From Deltaproteobacteria bacterium (GTDB lineage: Bacteria > Desulfobacterota > RBG-13-43-22), in NCBI GenBank assembly GCA_016219225.1, contig JACRBX010000093.1, positions 1 through 58,044 of the forward strand: a stretch of DNA of 58,044 bases, read 5' to 3'. The translations under genes and the position numbers were made by a program. This document shows positions 17,708-44,047 of this stretch, piece by piece. Under the pieces are notes generated by a model that saw only the letters and a list, made by a program, of their open reading frames with translations, did no database searches and was not told where the DNA came from. The stretch's first letter is position 1. Each line of letters begins with the position of its first letter.

Positions 17708-18475
17708 TCAGGTCTCACGCTGCTGTTCAAATGCCTGCCTGACTTGCTCGATCAGTGACTGAATCGAAAAGGTACCGCTGGCGTACTCCGGCTGAAGACT
17801 TAAAATCCGCTTTACTTCAATCGTATTGGGAGCACAGGTATTAAATAACCATTTTCCCGGCGCAAACAAGGTATTCGTATTCTTGATCATCAGCACCTCT
17901 ATCGGCGCACGACATCGTTTGGCAAGGGAAAAAGCGCCTTTGTTCAGCCGCCCGATCTTTCCATCCCGGCTTCTTGTCCCTTCCGGAAAGATAAATATAT
18001 TCTCCCCCGATACCAGGTAATTTTTAAGGTTCTCCACACCATCCAGCAAGAAGGTGGCGAAAGTTTCCTCCGTCGATGTAAATAAATAACCCGATGTTTT
18101 CAGCAGCCATCCGAAAACAGGCACCTTTAGAAATGTTTTTTTAATGATCGTTTTTTGTTGATCAAACAGAGAAATCAGAAGAATCGGGTCGAGGTAGGAG
18201 ATATGATTACAGACTATAACCGAAGATCGGATGGAATAAACGTCCTCGTCAATATGGATGGTTAAACGGGGGGTGATGATTCGCAGAACCCAAAAAAACG
18301 ATTTGAAAAATCGGTGATTTAATTTTTGAAAAGAAGTTTCGCGATTAATAGAGAACAGGAAGGAAAAGATGTAAAAGGGAGAGAATAAAATGAAATAGCC
18401 TAAGGTAAAATACATCCATAAAATAATGGTAACACTAAAATCAATGGAACGTTTAAGCCATTTGGGAATGGTCAT
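17708..18475 (-). CDS. PlsC-type 1-acylglycerol-phosphate acyltransferase
   Basis: A membrane-associated acyltransferase of 255 residues. Motif I NHISYLDP (90-97) and motif III FPEGTRS (163-169) are intact. One or two hydrophobic segments at residues 12-42 anchor it. It should put a second acyl chain on lysophosphatidate or a related acceptor. Placed between a ketosynthase and the desaturase-like gene, it probably uses the cluster's own acyl-ACP. Together with PlsY at the far end of the cluster it would complete a dedicated phosphatidate route. The low-GC, phenylalanine- and isoleucine-rich coding differs somewhat from its neighbours. Confidence 0.85.
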   Translation of the reverse strand: MTIPKWLKRSIDFSVTIILWMYFTLGYFILFSPFYIFSFLFSINRETSFQKLNHRFFKSFFWVLRIITPRLTIHIDEDVYSIRSSVIVCNHISYLDPILLISLFDQQKTIIKKTFLKVPVFGWLLKTSGYLFTSTEETFATFLLDGVENLKNYLVSGENIFIFPEGTRSRDGKIGRLNKGAFSLAKRCRAPIEVLMIKNTNTLFAPGKWLFNTCAPNTIEVKRILSLQPEYASGTFSIQSLIEQVRQAFEQQRET

Positions 18476-20115: not shown

Positions 20116-20535
20116 TTATGATCTCCCGCATAATGCTTCCCGGATGTCTTCAGGAATTTTAAAAGCCATCTCCATTTCGGGTAATTGAAGCGCCACTTGT
20201 TCGCTTTCGCCTTTGGCGCAGATCAATCCATTCGCGGCCAGCCTTACTTCAAAACCTAAAACGATCTTTATCTTCGCTTCTTTCAGATGGGCGGTACAAA
20301 TGAACTCATCGTTCACTCTTAAAGGTCGGATATGTTTGATCTTGGAGCGGATTACGGGGAAAACGATTTTTTTTTCTATCATGTAACTTCGCAAATCCAA
20401 TCCGCATTCCAAAAAGAGGGCTTGTCGAGCCCTTTCGAAGTACTTAAAATAATTTCCATTCCAAACGACATCCATAACGTCGACATCGTAATACGGAACG
20501 CGCAAAGTCACACTGGCCGAACAGAATTCCCCCAT
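20116..20535 (-). CDS. Hotdog-fold acyl thioesterase (4HBT type)
   Basis: A 139-residue single-hotdog enzyme with the YbgC/4HBT pattern YYDVDVMDVVWNGNYFKYFE at residues 15-34, including the catalytic Asp region and the helix that follows. It should release acyl chains from ACP or CoA, here perhaps the free acid that the cluster's fatty acid kinase can phosphorylate. It is the first gene of the TE-ACP-KS-PlsC-CrtI unit. A comparable thioesterase is a constant part of aryl polyene clusters. Confidence 0.85.
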   Translation of the reverse strand: MGEFCSASVTLRVPYYDVDVMDVVWNGNYFKYFERARQALFLECGLDLRSYMIEKKIVFPVIRSKIKHIRPLRVNDEFICTAHLKEAKIKIVLGFEVRLAANGLICAKGESEQVALQLPEMEMAFKIPEDIREALCGRS

Positions 20536-20668: not shown

Positions 20669-21325
20669 TCAAGGCCCTGATTGGACTAAGGTCATCTTAA
20701 GTGTATAGGAAACCGGTCTGAGTACTTGCAGTTCCATATCAGCCGCCAGACCCTGGACAAAGGGCCCTTTCAAGGAAACCTTTTTAGTCGCTCGGCCCTG
20801 ATCATCCCGGCGAAGGATTCCCCGGCCCTGGTCCGGCGTTTCCCTGGTTTCGGTTTGAAAACCGTCAGGATTACCCCAGCGGCAAACCCTGGTGCCATCC
20901 ATGGCTTTCCCCCAACTGACAGGACTGCCCAATGGAGAAAAAAAGAGGAAGGCCACATCCTCCATCATTCCTTTGGAAAAGGCTGGTGAATCAAAGGGGG
21001 GCACTGCTTTTCGGACGATAATTTCACCTTCCCGAAGATCTCCTTCAAAAAGGGTGAATCCCTCGGGGGTCAACAAAAGGCTGTGAAGCAGGCGCACCGA
21101 GGGGTCTCCCTTGGTGACCCCTATCATGGTGAAGGAGTTCCCTCCCCCGAAGAGGACCTCGATCTTATGGACACTCTCCCAGGGTCCGGGCGGAAAGAGG
21201 GTCAAACAATCCTGGAGGTCTTCGCCAGAGCCAGGGCTTAGGACCGTCCTGGCCGCGGGGACACACCCGGCCGAGAAAAGGAGAAATCCAAGGAAATAAA
21301 TACCAAGACTTATATTGCGAATCAT
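20669..21325 (-). CDS. DUF3261-like outer-membrane lipoprotein
   Basis: A lipoprotein of 218 residues. The signal peptide ends in the lipobox LFSAGC (Cys21). The body is rich in beta strands, and the segment near residues 75-100 (LHSLLLTPEGFTLFEGDL) fits the DUF3261 family, a regular member of aryl polyene clusters beside the LolA-like and exporter genes. It probably acts in the envelope, in moving or docking the lipid product. It is the last gene of the eight-gene unit that starts at 27745 and overlaps the LolA-like gene (ATGA). Confidence 0.75.
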   Translation of the reverse strand: MIRNISLGIYFLGFLLFSAGCVPAARTVLSPGSGEDLQDCLTLFPPGPWESVHKIEVLFGGGNSFTMIGVTKGDPSVRLLHSLLLTPEGFTLFEGDLREGEIIVRKAVPPFDSPAFSKGMMEDVAFLFFSPLGSPVSWGKAMDGTRVCRWGNPDGFQTETRETPDQGRGILRRDDQGRATKKVSLKGPFVQGLAADMELQVLRPVSYTLKMTLVQSGP

Positions 21326-21933
21326 GGGGTATCGAAAATCTCGGCTGGGATTTTGGAATTGGTTTCTACTTTTTTGAATTCCATCGAGGTCAGGGAACCC
21401 CCTGGTTCTTTTATCTCCACCCGATCAATCACTCCCGGCTTGGCAGAGAGGACAATCTCAATCCGCTGGATAAATTTGTCGATCCCCTCCCCGGGGGTCA
21501 AAATAACCCGGGCCGGAGGTCCAGGAGAATAGAGAGGTTTGAAGGCCTTACTTTCATCGAAACGACCTTGAAACCAACGGTTGATTTCGGCCAGCACCAT
21601 TCGTCTGGACTCAACTGCCGGTGTCGTTTCCGGTTTCCAGGCCCCTTCAGAGAAATGGTAAAGCTTAATGGTGTCCCCTTTCTGCAGCATAACGCTTCGA
21701 AGGGGGCTTAGGTACTCCCATCTCAGGGAACCGGGGAGGCAGAAAAAAAATCTGCCTTCAGAAAGAAGAGGTTTCGTGAGGATGGGAAGAAACCTCTTCT
21801 GAATAAAATCGGCCTTAATGGACTGGATATTTTTAGCGATTTCCTTTAGGGAAGCCAAATCCTGGGAAGCCCCTGCAACGGAAAGCTGAAGGCCGAGGGT
21901 CATTAAAACACAGAAAAACAGAATTCTTTTCAA
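21322..21933 (-). CDS. LolA-like periplasmic lipid carrier
   Basis: A secreted LolA-fold protein. The start is most likely the TTG at 21933, with ribosome site GAGGAAAGG just upstream, giving KRILFFCVLMTLGLQL as signal peptide. The ATG at 22008 lies inside the fabG-like gene and would give an unnatural N-terminus. The mature protein has the LolA opening (NIQSIKADFIQKRFL), an early strand pair (LLSEGRFFFCLPGSLRWEY) and the late DRVEIKEPGGSLTSMEF segment. LolA proteins carry acylated cargo across the periplasm; a LolA-like protein is a standard part of aryl polyene clusters. Confidence 0.85.
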   Translation of the reverse strand: MKRILFFCVLMTLGLQLSVAGASQDLASLKEIAKNIQSIKADFIQKRFLPILTKPLLSEGRFFFCLPGSLRWEYLSPLRSVMLQKGDTIKLYHFSEGAWKPETTPAVESRRMVLAEINRWFQGRFDESKAFKPLYSPGPPARVILTPGEGIDKFIQRIEIVLSAKPGVIDRVEIKEPGGSLTSMEFKKVETNSKIPAEIFDTP

Positions 21934-21955
21934 GTCGCGCCTTTCCTCGAAATTC

Positions 21956-22693
21956 CTAAACCATGCCACCATTGACCGAGATAACCTGGCCGGTAATGTA
22001 AGCGGCATCCTCGGAACAGAGGAACCGGACTACTTTGGCCACCTCTTCCGGGAGTCCCACCCGGGCCATAGGGATGATCTGTTTTATCAAGTCCCTGGGA
22101 ACGGCCTGAATCATCTCCGTTTCAATCAGACCGGGGGCAACGCAGTTAACCCGAATACCGAGACGGGCCACCTCGGAGGCCAGAGATCGGCAGGCCCCTT
22201 CCAAGCCGGCCTTGGCAGCCGAATAGTTGGTCTGACCGCGATGACCGAGTTTGGCTGAAACCGAAGAGATGGTCACAATGGCGCCATGTTTCCGGGTGAC
22301 CATCTTCTTGAGGACAGGCCTGGTGACATTGTAAAATCCATTTAAGGAGATGTTAAGAACCTTGGTCCATTCCTCGGAGGACATGAGGACAAAAAGACAG
22401 TCGGCGACCACACCGGCATTGTTTATAAGAATATCGATCGCCTCATGGCGGGATAGAAGGGCCTCCAGGTTTCTTTCAGTCTCTTCCTGATCGGCCACAT
22501 CGAAACAGACGGTCTCTCCCCGTCCTCCGGCTTGGTGAACCAGGGCCAGCGTCTCTTCCGCCGCCTGTGGGTTGGAACGAAAATTAACAATCACATAATG
22601 GCCGTTTCGGGCCAGTTCAAGACTGATGGCCCGCCCGATCCCCCGGCTCCCGCCCGTTACCAGGGCAACCTTCATTGGCAATAAAGGGTTCAT
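21956..22693 (-). CDS. 3-oxoacyl-ACP reductase (FabG-like)
   Basis: A short-chain dehydrogenase of 245 residues: TGGSRGIG (13-20) binds NADPH, NNAG (91-94) is in place, and the catalytic YSAAK is Tyr157/Lys161 with a Ser near 143. It should reduce the beta-keto group after each condensation. It is the only ketoreductase in the cluster, so it probably serves all the ketosynthases. It lies between the dehydratase and the LolA-like gene, the same order as in aryl polyene clusters. Confidence 0.9.
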   Translation of the reverse strand: MNPLLPMKVALVTGGSRGIGRAISLELARNGHYVIVNFRSNPQAAEETLALVHQAGGRGETVCFDVADQEETERNLEALLSRHEAIDILINNAGVVADCLFVLMSSEEWTKVLNISLNGFYNVTRPVLKKMVTRKHGAIVTISSVSAKLGHRGQTNYSAAKAGLEGACRSLASEVARLGIRVNCVAPGLIETEMIQAVPRDLIKQIIPMARVGLPEEVAKVVRFLCSEDAAYITGQVISVNGGMV

Positions 22694-22716: not shown

Positions 22717-23178
22717 TTAGATCCTCTGACGGGTCTTAAGGTTGGAAAGGATTTCCTCCCCAGGTTCCATGACCTGGATCGTGGTTTTGCAGAAGAAGCC
22801 CGACTCAGAACTGACTTGGCCTTCATAGACGGCATATTCACCAAGATGGTACATCTCGGCAATTTGGATAACGAGTTTATTCCCCACCGAAAAGCTGGTC
22901 GCAGAAAAGTCCGCTTTTTTAACACCCACCAGGAATCCAAGTCGCTCTCCGGCCCCTTTTCCCGCACGCCAGGTTCTCAGGGCAGCGATAGTCTGGGCGA
23001 CAAGTTCGATACTGATCACCGAGTTCACCCTTCCGTCCTGGTGAAGAGGCCAGTTGGGGTTTACTGTGGCTTCCGCCAGAAGGGTTTTCTCTATGGGTCT
23101 CTTGACCCATTCCAAGAGTCTCATGCGACGTCTGTGCGGGATTAGCGGTTCAGCCGGAAAAAATTCATTCTGGTCCAT
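22717..23178 (-). CDS. 3-hydroxyacyl-ACP dehydratase, ApeP-like hotdog
   Basis: A 153-residue hotdog protein from the ATG at 23178, which has a good ribosome site (AGGAAGGG); the ATG at 23214 is less likely. The motif order LIPHRRRMRLLEWV near the start and NSVISIELVAQTIAA in the central helix matches the dehydratases of aryl polyene clusters, which differ from FabZ. The Glu in the central helix and the His near the start are plausible catalytic residues. It should remove water from the hydroxyacyl chain to give the conjugated double bonds. Confidence 0.8.
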   Translation of the reverse strand: MDQNEFFPAEPLIPHRRRMRLLEWVKRPIEKTLLAEATVNPNWPLHQDGRVNSVISIELVAQTIAALRTWRAGKGAGERLGFLVGVKKADFSATSFSVGNKLVIQIAEMYHLGEYAVYEGQVSSESGFFCKTTIQVMEPGEEILSNLKTRQRI

Positions 23179-23229
23179 TTTTCCCTTCCTGTCAACCCAG
23201 TCTATATTGTTCAAAATGTGAGGCCACGA

Positions 23230-24993
23230 TCAACGGACGTCCCCAGACAAACCGCTCCGTCGGTGATTGTTCGGGAGAAAGGCCAATCCCCAGGAACCCG
23301 GGCCCATATGAGCCGCAGAGGTCAGGGAGAGGAGTTGCATGTGGACCTTCACCTGAGGAAACCGGCGCTCTATCTCCGGCTTGATTTCCTTTTCCAGCCA
23401 GTCCTTGTTGTCCGAGTATTCCAAAAGCAGGGTGGTCTTTTGATCCTTGGGGAGTTCGTTTTCGAGACGACGGAAGGCGAATTGCACCTGGTCTTTGGTG
23501 CTTCTCACCACCCCCATCTTCCTGGCCCCTTCTGAAAAAGGGCTGATAATGGGTTTGATGCGAAGGGTATCACCAAAAAAGGCGCCAGTCTTTGACATGC
23601 GGCCGCCGGCTGCCAGGAAGTGCAGCTTGTCGAGGAATATGTATTCCTGCACATTTTGAATGGCCTCCCGGGCAAAGGCGACGACCTCTTCGGGATCGCT
23701 GGCGGTGAGGGCCAGTTCGGCCGCGGCCCTGCTTATCAGACCGAGTTTGCCGGAAGCCACCCCGGTATCCATGATGATCATCCGGTCTTCGGGGTCTTGC
23801 CCGGCCTTCCATTGTAAGGCCGCCTGGTAATTCCCGGTATAGAAGGAGCCCACACAGAGATAGAGAACCCGGTCGTACAGTTTTATGATGTTATTGTAGG
23901 TCTCATGGCGCTCAGCCGTTGAGGCCTGGCTTGTGGAAACCTTGGCCCCGGCCTTCATGGCCGTAAAGAGCCTGGCCGGGTCGATATAGGTTTCCGGAAG
24001 ACAAAGATTCTCCACCATGATGTAACTGTCAAGAAGGGTAATGCCTAAGGCCTGAGCCTGGTCTCTGGTCATGGAACCGGCGGCATCGGTCATGATATGG
24101 ATAATCTGGTTTTTGGGGGATTCGCTGAACCGGGATGTCTGTTCGGCAAGATCATCTTCAGCCCAGCTAAGTATGGCCCCAAGAGAGGACAGGCCCTGTC
24201 TTGCTTTGTCCTTGTCGGTGGTATGAAAGTGAACCTTAAGACAGCTCTCTCCGGTAATGGTGACCAAGGCTTCTTCTGCCTTTAGGACCTGTTTCATCCT
24301 TTCCGCCCCTTCCTCCTTAACCTTAAGGACCACATCAAGGCAATAGCCCTTATATCCCTGGTCAGGCCGGGTTTCGGAGAGGACAAGGGTTTCCTTCAGG
24401 TCATCCATGAAGAAGGACTGCCGGACCTGGCGACCGGCCAGGATATTCAGCAGGGGTTCCAGGAAGACCAGCATACCAAGGGCCCCGGCATCGACCACAC
24501 CGGCCTCCCTGAGCTGAGGTAATTGCTCCCTGGTCATTTTTACGGCCTCTTCCAGATCGCGGATGACTGCATCGGCCCACTGACCTGTCCTCTCAGGAGG
24601 GGTTTTTTTCAAAGAAGTCACCAGGGTATCATACAGAGAAAGCATGGTTCCCGGTTGAGGGTCGGAAACGGCCTGATAGGCGAGATTTCGGCCGGTCTCG
24701 GCCGATTGGGGCAGGGCCGCCAGATCTTTTGAATCGAGAAACCCGGCCAGGAAACGGGCAGCGATGTTTCCGGAATTGCCTCTGGCCGAGAGCAGAATAT
24801 CCTGATTGAATGCCCCGGGATCTAAGGGTCTATTCCTTAAGGCGCCCAGGGTTATAACGAGATTGCGACCCGTGTCCCCGTCCGGCACCGGATAGACATT
24901 GATCCGGTTAAGGATATCGGCCCAGACTACGATCCTTTCGTAGCCCGCGGTCAGGGCTTTGATGAGAGTGTCCTGCATAATTAATTCCATCAT
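23230..24993 (-). CDS. Fused fatty acid kinase: DAK2 (FakA-like) plus DegV (FakB-like)
   Basis: A two-part protein. Residues 1-200 are a DAK2 kinase domain with the signature NRINVYPVPDGDTGRN (29-44), a glycine loop SARGNSGN and GVVDAGALG. Residues about 200-290 match the FakA middle region (KVHFHTTD). Residues about 295-570 are a DegV fatty-acid-binding domain (HIMTDAAGSMT, STSQAS). In Gram-positive bacteria FakA and FakB are separate and make acyl-phosphate from free fatty acid. Here the fusion may phosphorylate the cluster's fatty acid for PlsY. The ATG at 24993 overlaps the radical SAM stop (ATGA); the ATG at 25011 lies inside that gene. Confidence 0.85.
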   Translation of the reverse strand: MMELIMQDTLIKALTAGYERIVVWADILNRINVYPVPDGDTGRNLVITLGALRNRPLDPGAFNQDILLSARGNSGNIAARFLAGFLDSKDLAALPQSAETGRNLAYQAVSDPQPGTMLSLYDTLVTSLKKTPPERTGQWADAVIRDLEEAVKMTREQLPQLREAGVVDAGALGMLVFLEPLLNILAGRQVRQSFFMDDLKETLVLSETRPDQGYKGYCLDVVLKVKEEGAERMKQVLKAEEALVTITGESCLKVHFHTTDKDKARQGLSSLGAILSWAEDDLAEQTSRFSESPKNQIIHIMTDAAGSMTRDQAQALGITLLDSYIMVENLCLPETYIDPARLFTAMKAGAKVSTSQASTAERHETYNNIIKLYDRVLYLCVGSFYTGNYQAALQWKAGQDPEDRMIIMDTGVASGKLGLISRAAAELALTASDPEEVVAFAREAIQNVQEYIFLDKLHFLAAGGRMSKTGAFFGDTLRIKPIISPFSEGARKMGVVRSTKDQVQFAFRRLENELPKDQKTTLLLEYSDNKDWLEKEIKPEIERRFPQVKVHMQLLSLTSAAHMGPGSWGLAFLPNNHRRSGLSGDVR

Positions 24994-26336
24994 CGAATCC
25001 TCTGCTCCCACAGGGGGCCGGTGATCCCTTTTTTATGAAGGCGTTCCATTAACCGTGCGGCATGGTTCCCCCCTGAACCAATGATCCAGTTCTCTCGACC
25101 CTCAGCCTTTTCTTCAACCAACCGTCGTATATCTTCGCTTGTAATTAAGCGGGACCGGTAGAACACCGGTTCAAGTAGATCGGCAGACTCCGTAATCTGG
25201 CCCTCTTGCAGGGCCAAATCATAAAGCTTGGTATGGGGATAAACCCTTATGCCGCAGAAAAAAAAGATGACGGTTCTGGCAAGCTTTTCGGCATTAAGTA
25301 GGGTCTCCCTGACGGTTTCTCGGGTCTCCCCCGGACCTCCCAGAAGGATATAATGGGCCACATGCAGGTCGGCATCCAGGGCTGACGTATGGGCCTCAAA
25401 AACCTGATCCACCCGGAAGGGCTTTTGGTAGGCGGTCAACATGGCATCGGAAAGCGACTCGGTCCCGAATTCGGCGTGGGTCATCCCGGCTTTATGAAGC
25501 CTTTGGTAATACCCTTGAGGCGCCTTGGTGGGTGTCAGGTAAGCCCCCCAAGGGATGGCTATCCCCCTTCGGGTGAAGGCCCCGGCCACCTCCAGGCTGT
25601 GGGTATAACTGCTGTTAAACACAGAATCGGTGACAAAAAGATACTCCGCACCGGCCTGCTCCAACTCTCTGGCCTGGTCCCCCACCTCGTCGGCTGAGAT
25701 AAACCGTAAATTCCTTCCGTCGATATGAGGATAGGTGCAGTAGATACACTGATAGGGACATCCCCGTTTCGTCTGCAGGTTCATCATGCCGCCGTGGGTT
25801 ATGTAAAATTGGGTCATCTCGTCGGATGCCCTGGCTCTCTTAAAAGGGATTTCCCAAGGGGGAGGAAAGGCTTCTGGGGTGTCCCCGGAAACAATGCCCG
25901 GAAGGTCGGAAACCCTTTCTCCTGATTCAAGGGCATCAAGAAGAAGAGACAACCGTTCTCCTTCACCGACAATTCCGTAGTCCGCCTTCAAGAGGTCCAT
26001 AATTTTTCCGGGGAAAATGGTGAATCCGCTTCCGCCGAGGACGATGGGTGCCCGGGAATGTTCCCGGATGGTATCGACCAGATCCTGATATTTTTTTAAA
26101 AAACTCCGGGTATTCGTTACTTCCACATTGTCAATGTTGCGGAGCGAGATACCAATCAGGTGAGGGGTAAAGTCCAAAATGATTTTTTTAAGCCTCTCGA
26201 CTTCCCTGACGATGTTGGTGTCAATGATCTTAACGGTGTGTCGCTTTGATATGGCGCCGGCCACATATTCAAGCCCCAAGGGATATACGAAGTAGGGGAC
26301 CCTAACCGTATTGGCTGAAATCAGGAGAACCTTCAT
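24990..26336 (-). CDS. B12-binding-type radical SAM protein of lipid clusters
   Basis: An N-terminal B12-binding-type Rossmann domain (residues 1-150, KVLLISANTVRVPYF, then GGSGFTIFP and GEGE) precedes the radical SAM domain with RGCPYQCIYC (Cys193, Cys197, Cys200). The arrangement resembles the B12/radical SAM proteins found in fatty-acid-type clusters proposed for ladderane lipids in anammox bacteria and present in some Desulfobacterota. Such enzymes can methylate, rearrange or cyclise unactivated carbon. It is third in the unit, co-translated with the kinase fusion and four bases after the LpxL-like gene. The reaction is unknown. Confidence 0.85.
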   Translation of the reverse strand: MKVLLISANTVRVPYFVYPLGLEYVAGAISKRHTVKIIDTNIVREVERLKKIILDFTPHLIGISLRNIDNVEVTNTRSFLKKYQDLVDTIREHSRAPIVLGGSGFTIFPGKIMDLLKADYGIVGEGERLSLLLDALESGERVSDLPGIVSGDTPEAFPPPWEIPFKRARASDEMTQFYITHGGMMNLQTKRGCPYQCIYCTYPHIDGRNLRFISADEVGDQARELEQAGAEYLFVTDSVFNSSYTHSLEVAGAFTRRGIAIPWGAYLTPTKAPQGYYQRLHKAGMTHAEFGTESLSDAMLTAYQKPFRVDQVFEAHTSALDADLHVAHYILLGGPGETRETVRETLLNAEKLARTVIFFFCGIRVYPHTKLYDLALQEGQITESADLLEPVFYRSRLITSEDIRRLVEEKAEGRENWIIGSGGNHAARLMERLHKKGITGPLWEQRIR

Positions 26337-26339
26337 GGG

Positions 26340-27293
26340 TTAGATGCCTTCCATCGTTTCCCGAGATCGGGGTCTCAAGGCCGGGCTTAAACTTCCCCGT
26401 GGCCCGGCAGGAGGTCGAAAGAAAGGCTCAAAGATATACCACTGAAAAGGGTGTTGCCGGACCATCTCTTCCAGGGCGGCGGCATAAATCTGAGCGCTAC
26501 CTTGAAGGGCTATTTTTCGTTCCGTACGGGAGAGGGCCTTGACCTCCAGAGGAGGAGAGATGATGACCCGCTGCCCTCCCCTCATGTCCCGAAAGGTAAA
26601 CAGAATGAAGAGGGGTGCCCCCGAGACCAGGGCCAGAAGATGGGGGCCTGAGGGCAGGGCCACTTCCCGGTCAAAGAACCTCACCGGCAGCAGGGATCGT
26701 TGCTGGGTCCAAACCAAATCACCGGCCAAGGACACGATTCCCCCTTCCCGGATAAACTTAATCGCCTCCAATCCGTCTAAAAGTGAATCATCCTTTCCTG
26801 TAGCAACCAGAATGGTGATCCCCCGGGCCTTGAGGGCTTCACGCTGATCACGGGCCACTTGTTTGGCCTCTTTTTCTCCCATGATCATGAGATGCTTAAG
26901 TCCAACCTCCTGGAAACCTCGCGCCGCAATCTCAAAACTACCCAGGTGAGACATTAGGATTATCCCTCCCCGGCCGCTTCGGGCGGCTTCGAGTACTCCT
27001 TCACTTCCTTGGGTTGAAATAGAACCCTTTTTCTTCCCGCCGAAATCGATCCGGTCCCCAAAGGTAGCGGCGAAGGAGTGGAACTGACGCCAGGCACAAA
27101 AAAGATAGTACCAGGCCCTTCTATCAGGAAAAATCCCCTGATAAAGGCGGATACTCGATCGCCTTTTGGAGGGATAAAACAGAAAGTATCCGGTGGCAAT
27201 CCACCAGGCAAAGAATCGGACAGGCCAGGAGCTCAAAAAAAGGGATATCTTTTTCAGCATCTTGAGAAAGGATGCCTTCATAACACCTCTCAA
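26340..27293 (-). CDS. LpxL/HtrB-like acyltransferase
   Basis: A 317-residue membrane-anchored acyltransferase. The HxxxxE catalytic motif is SHLGSFE (His116, Glu121) and a hydrophobic stretch at residues 18-40 anchors it. Lipid A late acyltransferases and the acyltransferases of aryl polyene clusters share this fold. It probably transfers the special acyl chain to a glycolipid or other acceptor at the inner membrane. The start may be the ATG at 27281 instead. Confidence 0.85.
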   Translation of the reverse strand: MRGVMKASFLKMLKKISLFLSSWPVRFFAWWIATGYFLFYPSKRRSSIRLYQGIFPDRRAWYYLFCAWRQFHSFAATFGDRIDFGGKKKGSISTQGSEGVLEAARSGRGGIILMSHLGSFEIAARGFQEVGLKHLMIMGEKEAKQVARDQREALKARGITILVATGKDDSLLDGLEAIKFIREGGIVSLAGDLVWTQQRSLLPVRFFDREVALPSGPHLLALVSGAPLFILFTFRDMRGGQRVIISPPLEVKALSRTERKIALQGSAQIYAAALEEMVRQHPFQWYIFEPFFRPPAGPRGSLSPALRPRSRETMEGI

Positions 27294-28422: not shown

Positions 28423-28482
28423 TCTTCCAACAGCTCAATCCCGGTGTTGGCCCTTGGCCAATTAACGGGGAGGAACGCATTT

Positions 28483-29553
28483 ATGACCCTTACCCATACG
28501 GCATCCCTTGATCAAGGCAAACCGAAATTTTCCGAACTTCTCGCCCAGCCGGAAGTGAGGCAGCGGTGGGAAAAAGTCCGGAAATATTTTTTTCTCCGGG
28601 AATCCACCTACGACATGAGCAACCGCTGCAATCTCCGTTGTGACGGCTGCTATTATTATGAAGGTGAAAAACAATTCGCCGTGGAAAACAGCTCGGTCGA
28701 GGCCTGGCGGCAACTGATGAGAGACGAGAAAAAACGGGGCATCACCTACGTCGTCCTGGCCGGGGCCGAACCGTCGCTCGTGCCGGAGCGGTTGGAGGTT
28801 TGTTTTCAGGAAATCCCCTTGGGGAGCATTGCCACCAACGGCTTAAAAAAAATTCCGGAATCCGTGGGTTACAAGATCCACATTTCCGTCTGGGGCAATG
28901 ATGAGACCAGCTTCCGGGTGCGCAAGGCCAAGGACCTTTTAATAAAACAAATTGATAATTATCGCAATGACCCCCGGGCCGTTTTTGTCTATACCTTTAC
29001 CCGAAATAATATCGATGAAGTCCGGGAAGTTGCCGGGGGGCTGGTTGCCGAAGACTGCCGATTGACCTTTAATGTGTTTTCTTCTCCGGTAGGGTATGCC
29101 GGACCGCTGCGCCATGACGAAGAATCGCTTAAGCGCGTTCAAGCCGCCATGATGGCCCTTTTGGAGCACTATCCCCAAAATGTGCTTTTCTCGGCTTATA
29201 ATGCCATGGCCCATACGCATAAAAGCAGCTTGCATGATCTTTACACCTGTCTGTATCCCCGTCAGAACCGCTCCCAGGACCTGGGGCTGGGACGGTCTTT
29301 TCGGCAATACCGGGCGGATTTAAACTGGGACCGTTCGGCGGCCTGTTGCGTGCCGGACACCGACTGCGCCGACTGCCGTCATTATGCTTCCGGTTCGGCG
29401 GTCGTCACCGCCCGCCTTTTCCGCCATGCCCAGGAATCGGCCACGTTTAAATCCTGGCTGGATTATGTGGACACCTATTTGGCGGTCTGGGTGATGGGCT
29501 ATCCAAAAGGGGAGAATCTTTGCGCGGAGCCGGTGAGCCCCCCGGGGACTTAG
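28483..29553 (+). CDS. Radical SAM protein with C-terminal CC..C..C motif (paralogue 1)
   Basis: A 356-residue radical SAM enzyme from the ATG at 28483 (GGAGG upstream). The cluster motif NRCNLRCDGC has Cys49, Cys53 and Cys56. A second cysteine group near the C-terminus, ACCVPDTDCADC, resembles an abbreviated SPASM-like site and may bind an auxiliary iron-sulfur cluster. It has no B12 domain. It is clearly paralogous to the next radical SAM gene (same motif order, same C-terminal cysteines). It follows the ACP, so the substrate may be an ACP-bound chain. The reaction is unknown. Confidence 0.85.
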   Translation: MTLTHTASLDQGKPKFSELLAQPEVRQRWEKVRKYFFLRESTYDMSNRCNLRCDGCYYYEGEKQFAVENSSVEAWRQLMRDEKKRGITYVVLAGAEPSLVPERLEVCFQEIPLGSIATNGLKKIPESVGYKIHISVWGNDETSFRVRKAKDLLIKQIDNYRNDPRAVFVYTFTRNNIDEVREVAGGLVAEDCRLTFNVFSSPVGYAGPLRHDEESLKRVQAAMMALLEHYPQNVLFSAYNAMAHTHKSSLHDLYTCLYPRQNRSQDLGLGRSFRQYRADLNWDRSAACCVPDTDCADCRHYASGSAVVTARLFRHAQESATFKSWLDYVDTYLAVWVMGYPKGENLCAEPVSPPGT

Positions 29554-29710: not shown

Positions 29711-30709
29711 ATGAAGACCGTAAGTTCATTGCTGGATCACGAATGGCATGACCGATACAGACGGATCACCAATCTGAACATCCGCAGTTCCATATACGAT
29801 GTCACCAACCGGTGCAATTTGCGCTGTCAGGGCTGCTTTTTCTTTTCTTCCAACCAACACCAGGCCGCCCCGGAAGAAATGGACCTCACGAAGTGGGAAG
29901 CGTTTATCGACCGCGAAAAGGAACGGGGCGTAAATCTGGCCATACTGATTGGGGGCGAACCGACCCTTACCCTGGATCGGGTCGAGGCTTTTTATAAACG
30001 TCTTCCGACGTATTGCGCCACCAACGGCTTGATTAAAATCCCCCGCGATAAGTTTCCCGACCTGATGGTCGGTATTTCGCTCTGGGGCAGCGCCGAAGAC
30101 GAAAAGATCCTTCGCGGCCGCGACACCTTTGCTATATCGAGTACGCATTATGCCGGAGACGATTATACCTATTATCTGTACACCATTACGCCGCGGCAAG
30201 TGGGGAAGGTTGAAGCCACTGTTAAAAGAATTGCCGACGCGGGTCTGAAGGTCCATTTCCAGTTGTTATCCAATGACGAAGGCGCGGAAGGCTTTTACTG
30301 GAAGGAAAGGGAGTTGGAGGAACTGCGCCAGGAAATGGATGAGCTGTTGGATCAATACCCCCGGACGATCATTTCCAGTAAGTATTATCATAAGATCATC
30401 ACCACAGGAAGGATGATGGGGCGGCCCTTTGGCTGGGAGGAATGCCCTTCCGTGACCGAATCCCTGGACCATCGAAGCCCCCAACCTCGTCGCTTGATCC
30501 ATTTCGTCCGCTGGGCTTCCGATTTAAAGACCGTCCATCGCTGCTGCACTTCGGCCACACGGGATTGCACTACCTGCAAGGATGGCGCAGCGCACATGAG
30601 CTGGGTCATGGTCAATAAGCGGGAACACATCCGGTCGCCCCAAGACTTACAAAACTGGATCGAAGTTTATGAAATGTTTGCCAAGCTTTATCGCTTTATT
30701 CCCTGGTGA
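29711..30709 (+). CDS. Radical SAM protein with C-terminal CC..C..C motif (paralogue 2)
   Basis: A 332-residue relative of the preceding radical SAM protein. The cluster motif NRCNLRCQGC has Cys35, Cys39 and Cys42, and the C-terminal group is RCCTSATRDCTTC. The region GGEPTLTLDRVE matches the GGE motif that binds SAM; in paralogue 1 this is AGAEPSL. Tandem placement suggests gene duplication and successive steps or a heteromeric enzyme. Substrate unknown. Confidence 0.85.
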   Translation: MKTVSSLLDHEWHDRYRRITNLNIRSSIYDVTNRCNLRCQGCFFFSSNQHQAAPEEMDLTKWEAFIDREKERGVNLAILIGGEPTLTLDRVEAFYKRLPTYCATNGLIKIPRDKFPDLMVGISLWGSAEDEKILRGRDTFAISSTHYAGDDYTYYLYTITPRQVGKVEATVKRIADAGLKVHFQLLSNDEGAEGFYWKERELEELRQEMDELLDQYPRTIISSKYYHKIITTGRMMGRPFGWEECPSVTESLDHRSPQPRRLIHFVRWASDLKTVHRCCTSATRDCTTCKDGAAHMSWVMVNKREHIRSPQDLQNWIEVYEMFAKLYRFIPW

Positions 30710-30775: not shown

Positions 30776-32026
30776 ATGATTTCAAAAAAAGCCGTCATTA
30801 TAGGGTATGATGCCGTTTCTCCTTTAGGTCTTGATTGGGAAGTCCAGTGGGAACGGGCCGTCCGGGGGGAGTCCGGTATCGGACCATTGTCCCGATTTCC
30901 CCTGAGCCCCGATTTCCCGGTCCGGGTGGCCGGTGAGGTGGCACCCATCGATCCGAATCCTTATCCCTTTTTACGGCCCAGGGAAATGGTCCATTGGTCA
31001 TCTCCCATTTTCCCGTATGCCCTGCTGGTGGTGCACCGGGCCCTGCTTAAAAGCGGTATCGAGATTACGCCCGAAATCGCCCCGCGGGTGGCGGTCACCT
31101 TCAGCACCGCCGTGGGCGGGCTGGATGCGGTTTTACAAGCCGACCGACTGATGGTATCCGAAAGGAAAATGCCCCATCCCTTTACCAATCCCAATTCCTG
31201 CATTAATATGGTCGGTGGCCGGGTCTCCGTACTCACCGGCGCTACCGGGCCCATCTGTTCCACGATTACGGCTTGTGCCACTGGAATCCATTCCCTGATC
31301 ATGGGTGAACTCCTCCTGCAACGAGGTCTGGCCGATGTGGTTATCGCAGGGGCCGTTGATTTCCCTTTGGTTGAACCGATCGTCGCCGGATTTGCTACCA
31401 TGAACGGGGCCTACCGTCCCAAAGAAGGCCAGCCCCAGGAGGCGCCGGAAAAAACCAGCCGGCCTTTTTCAGCCCACAGAAGGGGCTTTGTCGTTTCCGA
31501 AGGGGCCGGATGCCTTATTTTGACCACGGCCGAATTTGCTAAAACCTACGGGCTCAAAGCACCGATTGAAATGGCCGGTTATGGAATGACCTCGGATGCC
31601 GCCCACTTTGTCTCTCCCAATTTGCAGACGGTCCAAAGGTGTATCGGGCAAGCCGTTGACAATGCCGGCTTGCAGCCCTCGGATATCGATGCCGTTAATG
31701 CCCACGCCACCTCCACTAAGGTGGGCGATAAAGTGGAGGCCGATGCTCTGCGCCAGGTCTTCGGCAAAACCCTGCCGCCGGTATCGGCCAATAAATCCCA
31801 GTTGGGCCATGCCATGGGGGCTTCCAGCGCCATCGAGGCTATCTTCGCCATAGAAGGATTGCTCCGGGAGACCCTGCTGCCTACCATTAATTACAATCCC
31901 GACCCGGCCATTGAAATCGATTGTGTGGCCGAGGGGGCCAGGAAGTTCAAGGGGGAATTTGTTTTGAAAAATGCCTTTGGTTTCGGCGGATGTAATGCCT
32001 CTCTGATTTTACGCCGGCTGATATAA
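30776..32026 (+). CDS. Beta-ketoacyl-ACP synthase (FabF type), first of a tandem pair
   Basis: An active condensing enzyme of 416 residues: ITACATGIHSL with Cys167, NAHATSTKVGD and ANKSQLGHAMGASSA hold Cys, both His and Lys. The N-terminal half is unusual for FabF (PFLRPREMVHWSSPIFPY) and is shared with the next gene, so the two are a tandem pair of related KSs, possibly a heterodimer. It lies 66 bases after the radical SAM gene. Confidence 0.9.
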   Translation: MISKKAVIIGYDAVSPLGLDWEVQWERAVRGESGIGPLSRFPLSPDFPVRVAGEVAPIDPNPYPFLRPREMVHWSSPIFPYALLVVHRALLKSGIEITPEIAPRVAVTFSTAVGGLDAVLQADRLMVSERKMPHPFTNPNSCINMVGGRVSVLTGATGPICSTITACATGIHSLIMGELLLQRGLADVVIAGAVDFPLVEPIVAGFATMNGAYRPKEGQPQEAPEKTSRPFSAHRRGFVVSEGAGCLILTTAEFAKTYGLKAPIEMAGYGMTSDAAHFVSPNLQTVQRCIGQAVDNAGLQPSDIDAVNAHATSTKVGDKVEADALRQVFGKTLPPVSANKSQLGHAMGASSAIEAIFAIEGLLRETLLPTINYNPDPAIEIDCVAEGARKFKGEFVLKNAFGFGGCNASLILRRLI

Positions 32027-32042
32027 GGATGAGCGGGAACAC

Positions 32043-33308
32043 ATGAAGCCACCCAAAAATAGAAAAGTATTTGTCGTCGGTTACGGGACGGCCACCCCCC
32101 TGGGGAGCACCTTTGAAAAGACCTGGAAGCGGGCCATCCGGGGAGAGGCCGGTTTCCGGAAGGTGACCCGTTGTCAGGTGGAATCCGCTTGCGACATTGT
32201 CGGTGAGATCCCGGACTGGAATCCTTTGGATCTTGACTTTATCGATGCCAAAGAAATCTACAATTGGAATGCCGCTTTTATCATCCTGACCATGGCGGTT
32301 TGCCAGGAGGCCCTGGAAAATTCAGGGATTACCATAGATGACCGGATTGCCCCGCGGATGGCCTGCCTCATCGGTTCGGCTTTAAACGGTCCGGATGCCT
32401 TTCGCCTGGCCATGCACGACTTGAAAGACCGGGGCCCGCTTCGGGTAAGCCCTTATCTGCTGCCTAATTTGTGCGCCAATGTGCCTTCCGGAAAGGCCGG
32501 GATGCTCCTGAAATTTACCGGACCGATTTTTTCACCTCAGGGCGCCTGTGCCTCGGGCAACCATGCCATCGGTCTCGGGGCCAGATTGATCCGGGATGGG
32601 GATTGCGATTTTGTCCTGGCCGGTGGCGTCGACGCCCCAATTTTGCCGGAATTGATCCACGGTTTTGCCAATATGAACGCCACCATCAAGGTGCATCCCG
32701 AAGACCGCGCTTATGCGGACCCGGCCCAGGCTTCCCGTCCTTTCAGCGGCGACCGCAAAGGCTTTGTTCTCTCGGAAGGGGCCGGCGTGGTGGTCCTGGC
32801 GGCCGAAGAACTGATCAAGGCTTACGGCCTAAAGGCCAGGGCCGAAGTTTTGGGGGTCGGCTGGAGTTCGGATGCTTATCATTACACCAGCCCCAATCCG
32901 GTAACCATAGTCCGGGCCATCCGGGAAACCATCGAAGACGCCGGCCTGCAACCAGCAGACATCCACTATATCAATGCCCACGGCACTTCCACCCCCAAGG
33001 GGGACCGTACGGAAATAAAGTGTCTGAGGGAGGTCTTTGGTAAAACAATCGAAAAAATCCCGGTTTCTTCCAATAAATCCCAGTTGGGACACACCCTGGG
33101 GGCCACGGCGGCCATTGAAGCCGCTTTGACCATCGAGGCCATGGGGAAAGGGCTCATTTTGCCGACCATCAATCATCTTCCCGACCCCGATTTTCCGGAT
33201 ATCGATGTGGTGCCCAATGTCCTCCGGAAAAAGAAGGTTGAGATTGCCCTTTCCAATGCCTTTGGTTTTGGCGGGACCAACTGCTGTGTGATTTTCAGGG
33301 GGGTGTGA
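32043..33308 (+). CDS. Beta-ketoacyl-ACP synthase (FabF type), second of a tandem pair
   Basis: 421 residues with a complete active site: QGACASGNHAIG with Cys169, NAHGTSTPKGD and SNKSQLGHTLGATAA. It shares N-terminal style with the preceding KS. Unlike the other pairs in the cluster, both members keep the nucleophile, so each could catalyse condensation. It ends two bases before the thioesterase start. Confidence 0.9.
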   Translation: MKPPKNRKVFVVGYGTATPLGSTFEKTWKRAIRGEAGFRKVTRCQVESACDIVGEIPDWNPLDLDFIDAKEIYNWNAAFIILTMAVCQEALENSGITIDDRIAPRMACLIGSALNGPDAFRLAMHDLKDRGPLRVSPYLLPNLCANVPSGKAGMLLKFTGPIFSPQGACASGNHAIGLGARLIRDGDCDFVLAGGVDAPILPELIHGFANMNATIKVHPEDRAYADPAQASRPFSGDRKGFVLSEGAGVVVLAAEELIKAYGLKARAEVLGVGWSSDAYHYTSPNPVTIVRAIRETIEDAGLQPADIHYINAHGTSTPKGDRTEIKCLREVFGKTIEKIPVSSNKSQLGHTLGATAAIEAALTIEAMGKGLILPTINHLPDPDFPDIDVVPNVLRKKKVEIALSNAFGFGGTNCCVIFRGV

Positions 33309-33309
33309 G

Positions 33310-33789
33310 TTGCGTCCCAAACCCTTCCGGCCGGAACCTTTCAATAATGATCCCCGTTATGTCCGGGACCAGACCACCGGGTTGATCTGGCACCGTACAA
33401 CCTATCGCACCCTGTATGCCGACACGGATCGGTCGGGGATGGTGTATCATTCCAATTACCTGCGCTATTTCGAATTCGGACGGACCTCTTTGATGCGCGA
33501 TGCGACTTACCCTTATAAGGAAATCGAAAAAAGCGGCTTTGTCTATCCCATTATCGATATGGGCGTTACCTATTATCATCCCCTGGTCTACGATGATCTG
33601 ATGCACATCCAGACCCGACCGACCCAGTTGGAGCGGGTGCGCCTGCAGTTTGACTATCTGATCACCCATGCCGAAAAAGGACAGATCATTTGCATGGGAT
33701 TTACGAAACACTGCGCTTTGAATTCAACCGGCACTCCCGTGGCCGTGGATACCAAGACGGTCCAGCTTTGGAAGACATTCCCCAGGTAG
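33310..33789 (+). CDS. YbgC-type acyl thioesterase
   Basis: A 159-residue hotdog thioesterase. The family motif YADTDRSGMVYHSNYLRYFE, with the catalytic Asp, lies near residues 36-55. The start is a TTG two bases after the KS stop, with a G-rich stretch (GGGGGG) upstream that may act as ribosome site; no better start is available. It is the second thioesterase in the cluster. Together they suggest that at least one free acid or a transfer step is part of the pathway. Confidence 0.8.
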   Translation: MRPKPFRPEPFNNDPRYVRDQTTGLIWHRTTYRTLYADTDRSGMVYHSNYLRYFEFGRTSLMRDATYPYKEIEKSGFVYPIIDMGVTYYHPLVYDDLMHIQTRPTQLERVRLQFDYLITHAEKGQIICMGFTKHCALNSTGTPVAVDTKTVQLWKTFPR

Positions 33790-37628: not shown

Positions 37629-40052
37629 TCAATATCCTCTACCCGTCGGTCTTTGGCGGATATTTTTTACTAAAGGCGGAACAAAGGCAACGGTTCCCAG
37701 GTAGGAATACCCGATACCCAGGGCCAGGACCAGCCCGGCGTTTTTTAAGAGGACATGGCTTGAAAAGGCCAGGACCCCGAAGCCGATAAAGGTCGTGGCA
37801 AAAGACAAGAATACGGACAGACGGATCAGACCCACAGAGGGGTGGTGCTCATCCCCATACCGTTGAAAGGCCCGGACCAGGTAAAGGGCATAATCCGTAC
37901 CCATGCCGATGACCACGGCCGCGGCCATGATGACGGGAATGCCGAGGGGCTGTTTTAAGAGACGGAGGGTCCCGATGGTACAGACCAGGGAGAACAAGGT
38001 CGGCATCAGGGCAATAAAGGTCAATCGCCAGCTAAGAAGATAAAGGAGAGAGACCAGGAAGGTTGTTACCCCCACGATCAATACCACACGGGAAAACCCC
38101 TTCAGGATCATCTCCCCCAAATGATCGCTAAACAGGAGGGGATCAAAAACCTTGGCCAGGTCCTTGGTAGTCAGGGTCTTATAAAAGACGGCCCCTTGAT
38201 AGGCCGAGCCTGGTTGGATAGTAGCGTAATGGGCCCAGTTTTTTCCCTGCTGTTTTACGATGCCCAGAAAGGGGAAGCAGGCCTCTGGGATCGGGGGAGC
38301 GGGGACTGTTTTTTCCTTAAGGGTCGCCAAGAAAGGGGCAAAGGCCCCAGGAGTAAAACCTAGTTTTGGCGCCAGGGATTCAATCTCCTGCCGCAGCCCG
38401 GTGATGCGCTCCTTGGTCCAGAAGGACTGCCAGGCCTGGAAATTCCGCCTGGCCCGTAGTTCCCCGGGAAAGAGCATCGCGGGAGAAAAGGCCGGGGCTA
38501 TAGTCCCTTTGGCCGTCTCCGCTTCTAAAAGGTCGGCCAGTCGGTCCTCTTTCTCCTGGAGTTCGGCCATGGTCCTACCTTCGACAGCCAGAAATACCCG
38601 GTTGAGGACATTGCCCCAGACGCCTTCGATCAGCTTTTCGGCGGCCAGGGTCGGGTCACCTACGGTATTCAGGGATTGAAGGTCCACCCGAAAATCGGGC
38701 CTGGCGAAAAAAAGCATCACCACCCCAAAAAGACCAACGGCCCAGACCGTCTTCTTCTTTCCCCGGACCAATCGATCGGACAGCCTCTGTAGAGGAAGGA
38801 TGCCCTGGCGCTTGGCCGGCAGTACCTTCGGAAAGAGAAAGGGGTAGACGGCGTGGACCAAAATATAGGTGAAAACGACCCCCAGGGCGGCAAACACACC
38901 AAGCTGAGAGAGGGCCGGGAAACCAGCCAGGAAAAGAAAGGCGAAGCTGATGGCGGTCGTTAACATAGCCAGCAGGCCAAGGGGCCAGACCTCCTTGGTC
39001 ACCTTCATACCCTGGGTTTCATAAGGACGGTCGAGAAACAGGAGGTAGGCAATGCCGTAATCGACGGTAAATGAAATAATCGCGCCGCCGAACCCGATAG
39101 CCAGAATGGAAATGGATTTTTGGAATAAGGAATAAACGAATAAAGCGATTATTGTCCCCCCAAAGGCCGGAAGGAGGGCCAACAGACCGATCCAGGGCCG
39201 CGGAAAACCCAATAGAAGCAGCAGGGCAATGACTATTGTGGAAACGAGAAGGGCTCGTTGGGTGTCCTTTTTGGCTGCCGTCTCGTTATCCAGGGCGGCC
39301 CGATAGGCCCCTACCGGTGTCAGGATAAAAGAATCAGGGCCGGAAGATTGCCGATTCAGCCGCAGGCTGATATCCTCTATAAGGGCAGTGACCTTCCGCG
39401 AAAAAGCGGTATCATAACCTGAGGTGAGGGGCTCGGCTATGATGAGGAGATGTCTTTTGTCCGCTGATAGAAGCTGTCCCTTGATCATGACAACATTCTG
39501 GGAAGACCCGAGCAGGGATAACCGCTTAAGGACAATATTTCGAAATTCGAGAGGGTCCCGGGCGATAAGGGAAGCCTGGCCGATCCCTTCCAGGCTGGTC
39601 AGGGTTGAGTAGGTATTGGTCAAGGTCCGACGAATATTTTCAGAAGAGAGGAGAGGCCCAACCTGCTCCTGGAGGTCCTGCTCGCTGAACAGGATGGGGA
39701 GATGGCCTGCCACATGGGCAATCAGGTCGGGGAAGAGTTTTTCATATTGGCGTAACCCCACGGTCTTAAAAAGGCCGCTTTCTCCCAAGACTTTCTCCAC
39801 CAACTCTCCGCCGCTGATGAGAAACTCGGGGTCGGTGCCCCGGTGGCCCAGATCGATAACTATCCTTTCCTGGATGGGGTGGTGGGAAATGACATAACGG
39901 CCGTCGGCGACGACCGGGTCATTCTGGGGAAGGGCGGCAACAATGTCCGTATCGATCGCCAGTCGGTATCGCCCGATGAGAAAAAGGAGTCCCAGGCCGA
40001 TGATAACGACCATGACCAGGGGCCAGGGGAAGCGCGGGCTATGCAGGGTCAT
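37629..40052 (-). CDS. MMPL/RND-family lipid exporter
   Basis: An 807-residue inner-membrane transporter with two repeats of an N-terminal helix, a periplasmic domain and a block of five helices. The second repeat contains MGTDYALYLVRAFQRYGDE, the typical proton-relay and loop motif of MMPL proteins; in the first repeat the matching segment is FTVDYGIAYLLFLD. Aryl polyene clusters carry the same type of exporter, thought to move the finished lipid out of the inner membrane toward a LolA-like carrier. It is the last gene of the PlsY-to-MMPL unit. Confidence 0.9.
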   Translation of the reverse strand: MTLHSPRFPWPLVMVVIIGLGLLFLIGRYRLAIDTDIVAALPQNDPVVADGRYVISHHPIQERIVIDLGHRGTDPEFLISGGELVEKVLGESGLFKTVGLRQYEKLFPDLIAHVAGHLPILFSEQDLQEQVGPLLSSENIRRTLTNTYSTLTSLEGIGQASLIARDPLEFRNIVLKRLSLLGSSQNVVMIKGQLLSADKRHLLIIAEPLTSGYDTAFSRKVTALIEDISLRLNRQSSGPDSFILTPVGAYRAALDNETAAKKDTQRALLVSTIVIALLLLLGFPRPWIGLLALLPAFGGTIIALFVYSLFQKSISILAIGFGGAIISFTVDYGIAYLLFLDRPYETQGMKVTKEVWPLGLLAMLTTAISFAFLFLAGFPALSQLGVFAALGVVFTYILVHAVYPFLFPKVLPAKRQGILPLQRLSDRLVRGKKKTVWAVGLFGVVMLFFARPDFRVDLQSLNTVGDPTLAAEKLIEGVWGNVLNRVFLAVEGRTMAELQEKEDRLADLLEAETAKGTIAPAFSPAMLFPGELRARRNFQAWQSFWTKERITGLRQEIESLAPKLGFTPGAFAPFLATLKEKTVPAPPIPEACFPFLGIVKQQGKNWAHYATIQPGSAYQGAVFYKTLTTKDLAKVFDPLLFSDHLGEMILKGFSRVVLIVGVTTFLVSLLYLLSWRLTFIALMPTLFSLVCTIGTLRLLKQPLGIPVIMAAAVVIGMGTDYALYLVRAFQRYGDEHHPSVGLIRLSVFLSFATTFIGFGVLAFSSHVLLKNAGLVLALGIGYSYLGTVAFVPPLVKNIRQRPTGRGY

Positions 40053-41361: not shown

Positions 41362-41625
41362 TTATTTCTTTTGCTGTTCCTGTATAAATTCAGCGAGAGT
41401 TCGGAGAGAATAGAATATCTTGGGCCCCTCTGCCTTGGGGTCTTCAATCGTAAGACCATAATTTTTCTCTAATAACACCATGATCTCCAGGGCATCGATG
41501 GAATCCAGCCCCAACCCGTCTCCGAAAAGAGGATCTTCCGGGCTTATATCTTCCGGGGTGAGGTCTCCCAGGTTCAGGATATCGATAATTTCTTCCTTTA
41601 GTTTGAGAATCAGATCTTCCATCAT
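41362..41625 (-). CDS. Acyl carrier protein
   Basis: An 87-residue acidic carrier with phosphopantetheine site GLDSIDALEI (Ser42). The ATG at 41625 overlaps the stop of the half-ketosynthase gene (ATGATGG with TGA), so I use it instead of an upstream start at 41649. This is the third ACP of the cluster and is tied to the KS/half-KS pair by position. Confidence 0.9.
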   Translation of the reverse strand: MMEDLILKLKEEIIDILNLGDLTPEDISPEDPLFGDGLGLDSIDALEIMVLLEKNYGLTIEDPKAEGPKIFYSLRTLAEFIQEQQKK

Positions 41626-42278
41626 AATGATTTTCCTTCTACAAAACATTTTTCCAAGTTCGAGGGGTCAAAGATAAACCATTCCTGAAATTTATTCAAT
41701 CTCTTTATCCGGTCTATCTGTTCAACAACGAACAATAAAGATCGATAACTATTTCCATAACATTCGATCCAGCCCGCGAGGCAGCAATGGACCCTTTGGT
41801 TACGAAATAATTCAGAAACATACTGAAAGATAAAGAATGGATCAAATTGTTCAAAGATCAGTACGGCATTTTCACCCTTTATTTTATGCCGGATAGCGAT
41901 CTCGCCAACCATGATATTGGGAAGGGTGTAGACGAAGACGGAGGGACTCGGGAAATAGTGGTTCGCGTCGCGGATCGATTCCTGATGTTTCTCGTCAGAG
42001 TCCAGGGAGGAACTGGCATTACTAAGGATGATCCCGATTTCTTCGCCGGGATAGTTCCGGAGGATATCCGTCCCTTGAAGCAGGATCTCGGCGCTTAGAA
42101 AACACAACCGGCAGAGGTTGTCCATTTTAAAAAATTTTGGGTAGCTGATGCCGTAGTGACGGTAGACAGAACGAAGGACCGCGGCGGCCGAGTTTGCATC
42201 CGCCGAATACTCGACGATTCCGTCGAGAATGACCCGGCCGTTTTGAAGCCGGATAGTTCTGGTAATCCCTAATTCCAT
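41622..42278 (-). CDS. Half-length ketosynthase-like protein with Cys-to-Gln change
   Basis: 218 residues corresponding to the N-terminal half of a KS. It has YPKFFKMDNLCRLCFLSAE and the strand IGIILSNASSSLDSD, then PSPSVFVYTLPN. Aligned with the adjacent KS (VVSNACISG), the nucleophile position is Gln144 (VLIFEQFDP). Gln at this site is the hallmark of classical chain length factors. The C-terminal half with the His/Lys residues is missing, and the family is known from Bacteroidetes flexirubin-type clusters. It is six bases after the active KS and probably pairs with it. Confidence 0.75.
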   Translation of the reverse strand: MELGITRTIRLQNGRVILDGIVEYSADANSAAAVLRSVYRHYGISYPKFFKMDNLCRLCFLSAEILLQGTDILRNYPGEEIGIILSNASSSLDSDEKHQESIRDANHYFPSPSVFVYTLPNIMVGEIAIRHKIKGENAVLIFEQFDPFFIFQYVSELFRNQRVHCCLAGWIECYGNSYRSLLFVVEQIDRIKRLNKFQEWFIFDPSNLEKCFVEGKSL

Positions 42279-43463: not shown

Positions 43464-44047
43464 GGGAGTTTTTTTTTGTTCATTTTTATTCGATAAGCCA
43501 CAAGATTAGGTTTGTGGGCTTTAAGGATTAAGGCCATGGTTAAACCTGTACCGATCATCACAGGCCAGGCCCAGGAGAAATGGATCATGGTTCCCAATCC
43601 CAAAACCGCGATCATAAAAAAAGACCCGATAAAGGGCTGACGAAAAAGTCCATAGGCTAAGAGCCAAGCCAAACAAGAAACTCCGGCCAAAACAGGAGAG
43701 ATGAAGATAGTAAATCCAAGAAAGCTGGCAACCCCCTTACCGCCTCGGAACCCGTGAAACAAGGGCTTTTGGTTCCCAGCCACGAGGACAAATCCTAAGA
43801 GGGGGACTAATGGACCAGGCAAAAACCAAACCCCGATTTGAGCGATGGTTCCGGCACGTCCCATATCCAGTACGAGGATCACCAGACCCCAAAATTTGCC
43901 GACCTGCCGGGAGACGTTGGTGGTCCCGGCGTTGCCGCTGTACTGGTCCCTGGGATCGCCTTTTCCAAGTAACTTAAACAGTATAATGGAAAAATTAATT
44001 GAAGCGGCCAGATAGGTGGCTACGCTCAACAATATCACGTTTCTCAT
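43460..44047 (-). CDS. plsY: PlsY-like glycerol-3-phosphate acyltransferase (divergent)
   Basis: A five-helix membrane protein of 195 residues. PlsY uses acyl-phosphate to acylate glycerol-3-phosphate. Motif 1 is present (YSGNAGTTNVSRQ) and the glycine-lysine motif 2 is FHGFRGGKGVAS, but the His that normally precedes motif 2 (GH) is Asn (GNQKP), and the C-terminal motif is degenerate (HKPNLVAYRIKMNKKK). It may therefore prefer an unusual acyl-phosphate or acceptor. It is the first gene of the minus-strand unit that ends in the MMPL exporter. With the FakA-FakB fusion it suggests a private acyl-phosphate pathway. Confidence 0.85.
   Translation of the reverse strand: MRNVILLSVATYLAASINFSIILFKLLGKGDPRDQYSGNAGTTNVSRQVGKFWGLVILVLDMGRAGTIAQIGVWFLPGPLVPLLGFVLVAGNQKPLFHGFRGGKGVASFLGFTIFISPVLAGVSCLAWLLAYGLFRQPFIGSFFMIAVLGLGTMIHFSWAWPVMIGTGLTMALILKAHKPNLVAYRIKMNKKKLP

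Follow-up and report, generated by a model that had tools for sequence, protein, structure and literature searches.

The canonical fatty acid kinase of Firmicutes, Fak, is a scavenging system (PMC12594616, PMC10146087). In S. aureus FakA, Asn32, Asp38, Asp40, Thr41, Asn82 and Asp185 serve nucleotide and Mg binding, and Cys240, His282 and His284 of the middle domain are catalytic; FakB docks on the C-terminal domain, without which FakA still has Fak activity (PMC9136124). In FakB, Thr62, Ser95, Ser171, His270 and Arg173 form the carboxylate network and latch (PMC8892158). FakAB drives PlsY in vitro without PlsX to yield lysophosphatidic acid (PMC13400652), and in E. faecalis a thioesterase feeds Fak (PMC12288450). 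Ladderane-type gene clusters are known from Kuenenia and Desulfotalea, and for these an acyl-CoA ligase was proposed to act in glycerol attachment (Rattray 2009, PMC2649909).

The window (i.e., the whole 58,044-nucleotide stretch of deltaproteobacterial DNA that was analyzed) carries a cluster that, judged by its gene content, is of the ladderane type: it encodes a B12-binding radical SAM protein above the TIGR04072 cut-off, FabF copies (six ketosynthases) and a desaturase-like (CrtI-like) enzyme, together with a FabZ-like dehydratase, an AMP-ligase and further radical SAM proteins. A B12 radical SAM protein, a phytoene-desaturase-like protein, many FabF copies and a large membrane protein are shared with the Kuenenia and Desulfotalea clusters. 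In contrast, the main text of Rattray 2009 (PMC2649909) mentions no kinase, thioesterase or acyltransferase, while the window cluster has all three types. The cluster probably builds an unusual membrane lipid, with rSAM1 and rSAM2 probably being key pathway enzymes. The sequence-only reading had described a DAK2-DegV fusion accompanied by PlsY, PlsC and two thioesterases, and domain searches confirmed all of these genes (Table 1).

Table 1. Location of the fusion gene and of selected cluster genes in the window.
Feature	Position	Strand	Remarks
PlsC/LPAAT-type acyltransferase	17708..18475	-	PF01553 77.7 bits; TIGR00530 72.8, below cut-off 102.95
TE1, 4HBT thioesterase	20116..20535	-	immediately upstream of the fusion in most relatives
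LolA-like lipid carrier	21322..22008	-	
FabG-type ketoreductase	21956..22693	-	
ApeP-like dehydratase	22717..23214	-	PF22817 23.8 bits, below cut-off 27; gap of 15 nt to the fusion gene's end
Candidate single-chain fatty acid kinase (DAK2/FakA_N + FakA middle + FakB-type DegV)	23230..24993	-	587 aa; based on domains, catalytic residues, AlphaFold model and fold matches
B12-binding radical SAM protein, TIGR04072 ladderane-type	24990..26336	-	414 bits, cut-off 360; ATGA overlap with the fusion gene
LpxL/HtrB-like acyltransferase	26340..27293	-	often adjoins the fusion in relatives
rSAM1, radical SAM protein	28444..29553	+	
rSAM2, radical SAM protein	29711..30709	+	found only in fusion-carrying genomes
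Two ketosynthases, KSd and KSe	30776..33308	+	
TE2, YbgC/FadM-type 4HBT thioesterase	33310..33789	+	TIGR00051 86.2 bits, cut-off 68.7
MMPL/HpnN-like lipid exporter	37629..40052	-	
Acyl carrier protein	41362..41649	-	
Cluster-type PlsY	43460..44047	-	PF02660 105.6 bits; retains the G3P clamp; Asn in place of His92, His at position 98

The fusion gene was taken to start at the ATG at 24993, where it overlaps the radical SAM gene; an alternative GTG start at 25011 would give 593 aa. Pfam matches to Dak2 (62.5 bits), FakA-like_M (24.2 bits, cut-off 24.9) and DegV (147 bits) support the fusion, and fold matches agree with them. The FakA middle domain, which the sequence-only reading had not mentioned, retains its catalytic Cys and two His. 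Against NCBIfam, the DegV domain scored above cut-off, and the YloV, FakA and FakB1 models all scored below theirs. Dak2, FakA-like_M (PF21645) and DegV were all present in 55 of 55 aligned fusion relatives, none of which matched FakA-like_C (PF13684); DegV (PF02645) occupies the place of the FakA C-terminal domain. Because of this replacement, we regard the protein as a fused variant and not as a FakA orthologue. In a Foldseek search with an AlphaFold model (pLDDT 88.6, pTM 0.90), S. aureus FakA_N resembled the N-terminal domain (TM 0.74-0.79 at 30% identity), and structures of FakB/DegV proteins resembled the C-terminal half (TM 0.77-0.87). A degenerate FakA_C domain in place of the DegV half was ruled out by the absence of FakA-like_C from all 55 relatives, the full-length DegV match and the FakB-like structure. 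The window's genome yielded neither a second Dak2 gene nor, by tblastn with the fusion, a further homologue.

Residues N32, D38, D40, T41, N73, D168, C218, H255 and H257 of the fusion, which correspond to S. aureus FakA N32, D38, D40, T41, N82, D185, C240, H282 and H284, respectively, were invariant in 55 of 55 relatives. The DegV half was mapped to FakB by motif and not by full pairwise alignment; on this mapping, the Thr62 position is Thr in 51 sequences and Ser in 4, His270 and Arg173 are conserved, the Ser171 position is apparently Gly and Ser95 is ambiguous. Since its domains and catalytic residues are intact, the fusion looks like an active, self-contained fatty acid kinase with its fatty-acid carrier permanently attached. 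One fusion protein of the sample (G132; L192 / L018) reads DADTG in place of DGDTG, keeping both Asp.

Compared with the FakA-FakB system of Staphylococcus and Streptococcus, the fusion shares the DhaL/DAK2 kinase domain, the Cys-His-His middle domain and the fatty-acid-binding DegV domain of FakB; in contrast, it is a single chain, lacks the FakA C-terminal docking domain and lies in a biosynthetic cluster of a Gram-negative bacterium. Single-chain DAK2-DegV proteins with the same domain order also exist in Firmicutes (Listeria innocua WP_207577344.1, Acetoanaerobium and Enterococcus raffinosus), so the architecture itself is not new, and the idea that it is unique was discarded. However, the Firmicutes proteins are only ~25% identical to the fusion and also score for FakA-like_C, and the Listeria gene, unlike the fusion gene, is not surrounded by a lipid cluster. 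That gene (L217:4013-5746) is immediately followed by a DUF1295 gene. No description of the fusion was found in the literature searched, of which coverage was partial; as far as that literature shows, the dedicated cluster setting, the thioesterase coupling and the variant PlsY described below are new.

The fusion is present in 30 members of a 395-genome sample of the phylum, and it was found only within ladderane-type clusters, whose genes make up its surroundings. This count includes a close relative (G004; L007 and L008) whose fusion reading frame is interrupted, by either a real break or an assembly error. Matches to rSAM2 came from 22 of 321 genomes, each of them a fusion carrier, and the protein is 70-84% identical across families. 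A genome scan with a single sequence found no relatives; public species genomes queried with an alignment yielded 308, the best 80 of which came from Deltaproteobacteria (Syntrophaceae, Smithella, Desulfobacterales) and some Spirochaetes metagenome-assembled genomes. A 4HBT thioesterase gene lay directly upstream of the fusion on the same strand at 58 of 74 loci drawn from these best 80, a sample biased to close relatives, with the spacing mostly between -8 and +3 nt (i.e., overlapping or separated by at most 3 nt). These spacings suggest that the fusion is usually translationally coupled to the thioesterase. In the window, TE1 belongs to the same gene run as the fusion with four genes in between. 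Another fusion subtype (~11 genomes) has an AMP-ligase-like gene in the thioesterase's place.

The PlsY of the window lies ~18.5 kb from the fusion, where it heads another minus-strand gene run and overlaps a ketosynthase neighbor by 4 nt. It scores 75.9 against the TIGR00023 equivalog, below the cut-off of 137.2. A profile of the cluster-type protein separated 16 of the 395 genomes (217-330 bits) from all others (at most 113 bits), and these sequences form one clade of their own (support 1.0). The contacts to glycerol-3-phosphate (the clamp and 2-OH contacts Ser35, Arg45, Lys104, Ser142, His177 and Asn180) were invariant in 12 of 12 sequences, and the clamp residues Ser, Arg, Lys, Ser, His and Asn are common to cluster PlsY and Aquifex PlsY (5xj5). 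By contrast, His92 and Phe98 of the Aquifex protein are replaced by Asn and His, a pair of changes seen in 16 of 16 cluster-type proteins, while His92 is kept in 13 of 13 canonical ones. His92 of Aquifex PlsY is one of two side chains touching the acyl-phosphate and is 97.8% conserved, and the H92N protein keeps ~7% of activity (PMC5700162). Because this pocket His is absent, we classify the cluster protein as a variant PlsY, in which Asn92 may reflect a donor pocket altered to suit a special chain or the use of a different donor.

The sequence-only reading had offered co-occurrence of the fusion with cluster-borne plsY as its own refutation test, and the association proved well above chance: 15 of the 16 genomes with a cluster-type PlsY carry the fusion (Fisher 4.6e-18 across genomes, 2.3e-7 across families), although these genomes are not independent, 7 of the 15 belonging to one family. 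Joint inheritance of the cluster may account for part of this signal. That co-occurrence reflects cluster membership only is an explanation weakened by two conditional tests. In genomes that lack a housekeeping PlsY, cluster PlsY is present in 12 of 13 fusion carriers versus 1 of 92 genomes with no fusion (8.6e-14); restricted to TIGR04072-positive genomes, the comparison gives 15 of 27 versus 0 of 129. Cluster PlsY is missing from 15 of the 30 fusion genomes, all 15 of which have PlsX and 14 a housekeeping PlsY.

Together, these observations suggest a route in which TE1 would release the acid from the cluster's acyl carrier protein, the DegV half of the fusion would hold the free fatty acid, and the FakA half would phosphorylate its carboxylate with ATP to form acyl-phosphate. 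Cluster PlsY would then take the acyl-phosphate to acylate glycerol-3-phosphate, the PlsC and LpxL-like acyltransferases of the cluster would complete the lipid, and the LolA and MMPL proteins would move the finished product. The outcome would be a dedicated loading branch for an unusual acyl chain made by the ladderane-type pathway. Domains, catalytic residues, operon coupling and co-occurrence were all read from sequence; we infer the substrate as well as the reactions and the order in which they occur. A dedicated channel is likely, and taken as a whole, the path from TE1 through the fused kinase to PlsY and PlsC is one that we consider reasonably probable. In E. faecalis, the TesE-Fak-PlsY path likewise begins with a thioesterase that frees the acid, which Fak phosphorylates to deliver acyl-phosphate to lipid synthesis; there, however, the genes are separate and the path serves bulk lipid, whereas here they share a single cluster and coupling is usual (PMC12288450). 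The thioesterase, fused fatty acid kinase and variant PlsY thus constitute a candidate route for attaching ladderane-type chains to glycerol with clean genomic support, in which the glycerol-loading step can be tested in vitro with few proteins. This also suggests that fatty acid kinases, besides their scavenging role in Firmicutes, perform a dedicated step of biosynthesis in deltaproteobacterial-type bacteria.

How closed such a branch might be depends on the other acyl-phosphate enzymes. The sequence-only reading had reserved the branch for the cluster's own fatty acid and set it apart from PlsX; the latter fits ten fusion genomes (95-100% completeness) that lack PlsX, have no PlsY other than the cluster type scoring above the family cut-off, and all have PlsB. 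In these ten genomes, which also have no housekeeping PlsY, no acyl-phosphate source other than the fusion was recognized, and bulk phospholipid can be made by PlsB. Such separation does not extend to the window's genome, in which PlsX and a housekeeping PlsY are encoded on other contigs and no PlsB was found; there, the branch need not be closed, and acyl-phosphate could leak either way. Absence of PlsX was also considered as proof of a fusion-PlsY link, but this argument was dropped because 49 genomes of the phylum sample have a canonical PlsY without a PlsX match, so that PlsX loss by itself is insufficient to prove that PlsY is fed by the fusion. We hold only tentatively the stricter version in which the line is closed, i.e., a PlsY subclass whose phosphate pocket has been rebuilt (Asn92 and the new His98) would accept acyl-phosphate from the fused kinase alone, and channeling instead of the common acyl carrier protein pool would set lipid identity.

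The claim that the fusion links the thioesterase to PlsY is favored by the catalytic residues, the usual thioesterase coupling and the 15 of 16 co-occurrence, and is strained by the His92 to Asn change and by the half of fusion clusters that lack PlsY. The latter, together with the PlsX found in all 15 of those genomes and the scavenging role of Fak in Firmicutes, would fit a salvage or repair function, in which the fusion reactivates free acids, whether lost from the pathway or of external origin, and passes acyl-phosphate to any cellular PlsY or PlsX without being a committed step. We consider this rather unlikely, given that a general scavenger is expected to be more widespread than a protein found only in these clusters, that rSAM2 occurs only in fusion genomes, and that ten fusion genomes have no PlsX. 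That same absence, and the way cluster PlsY tracks the fusion, make it improbable that acyl-phosphate is returned through PlsX to acyl-ACP and elongated further instead of going to glycerol-phosphate. Flow from Fak to acyl-ACP is nonetheless described for Enterococcus (PMC11586512), and one single-contig genome (G017; L034 / L083) has the fusion and PlsX with no PlsY or PlsB detected.

The fusion and PlsY could also be merely co-inherited in one cluster while serving separate branches, for example if the changed PlsY used acyl-ACP or another donor. Such a split would agree with the Asn92 and His98 of every cluster-type PlsY, with the placement of the window's PlsY and fusion in different gene runs, and with the sole cluster-type PlsY found without a fusion (G209; L110), which lies ~4.5 kb from plsB and outside any lipid cluster. 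We nevertheless judge it unlikely, as cluster PlsY occurs in TIGR04072-positive genomes only where the fusion does, and we favor the dedicated loading branch.

Elsewhere in the window, a ketosynthase gene (12518-13825) encodes a protein without the active-site Cys (NHREASAETA) and overlaps a ketosynthase gene of normal length (13755-15083), an arrangement that resembles a chain-length-factor pair.
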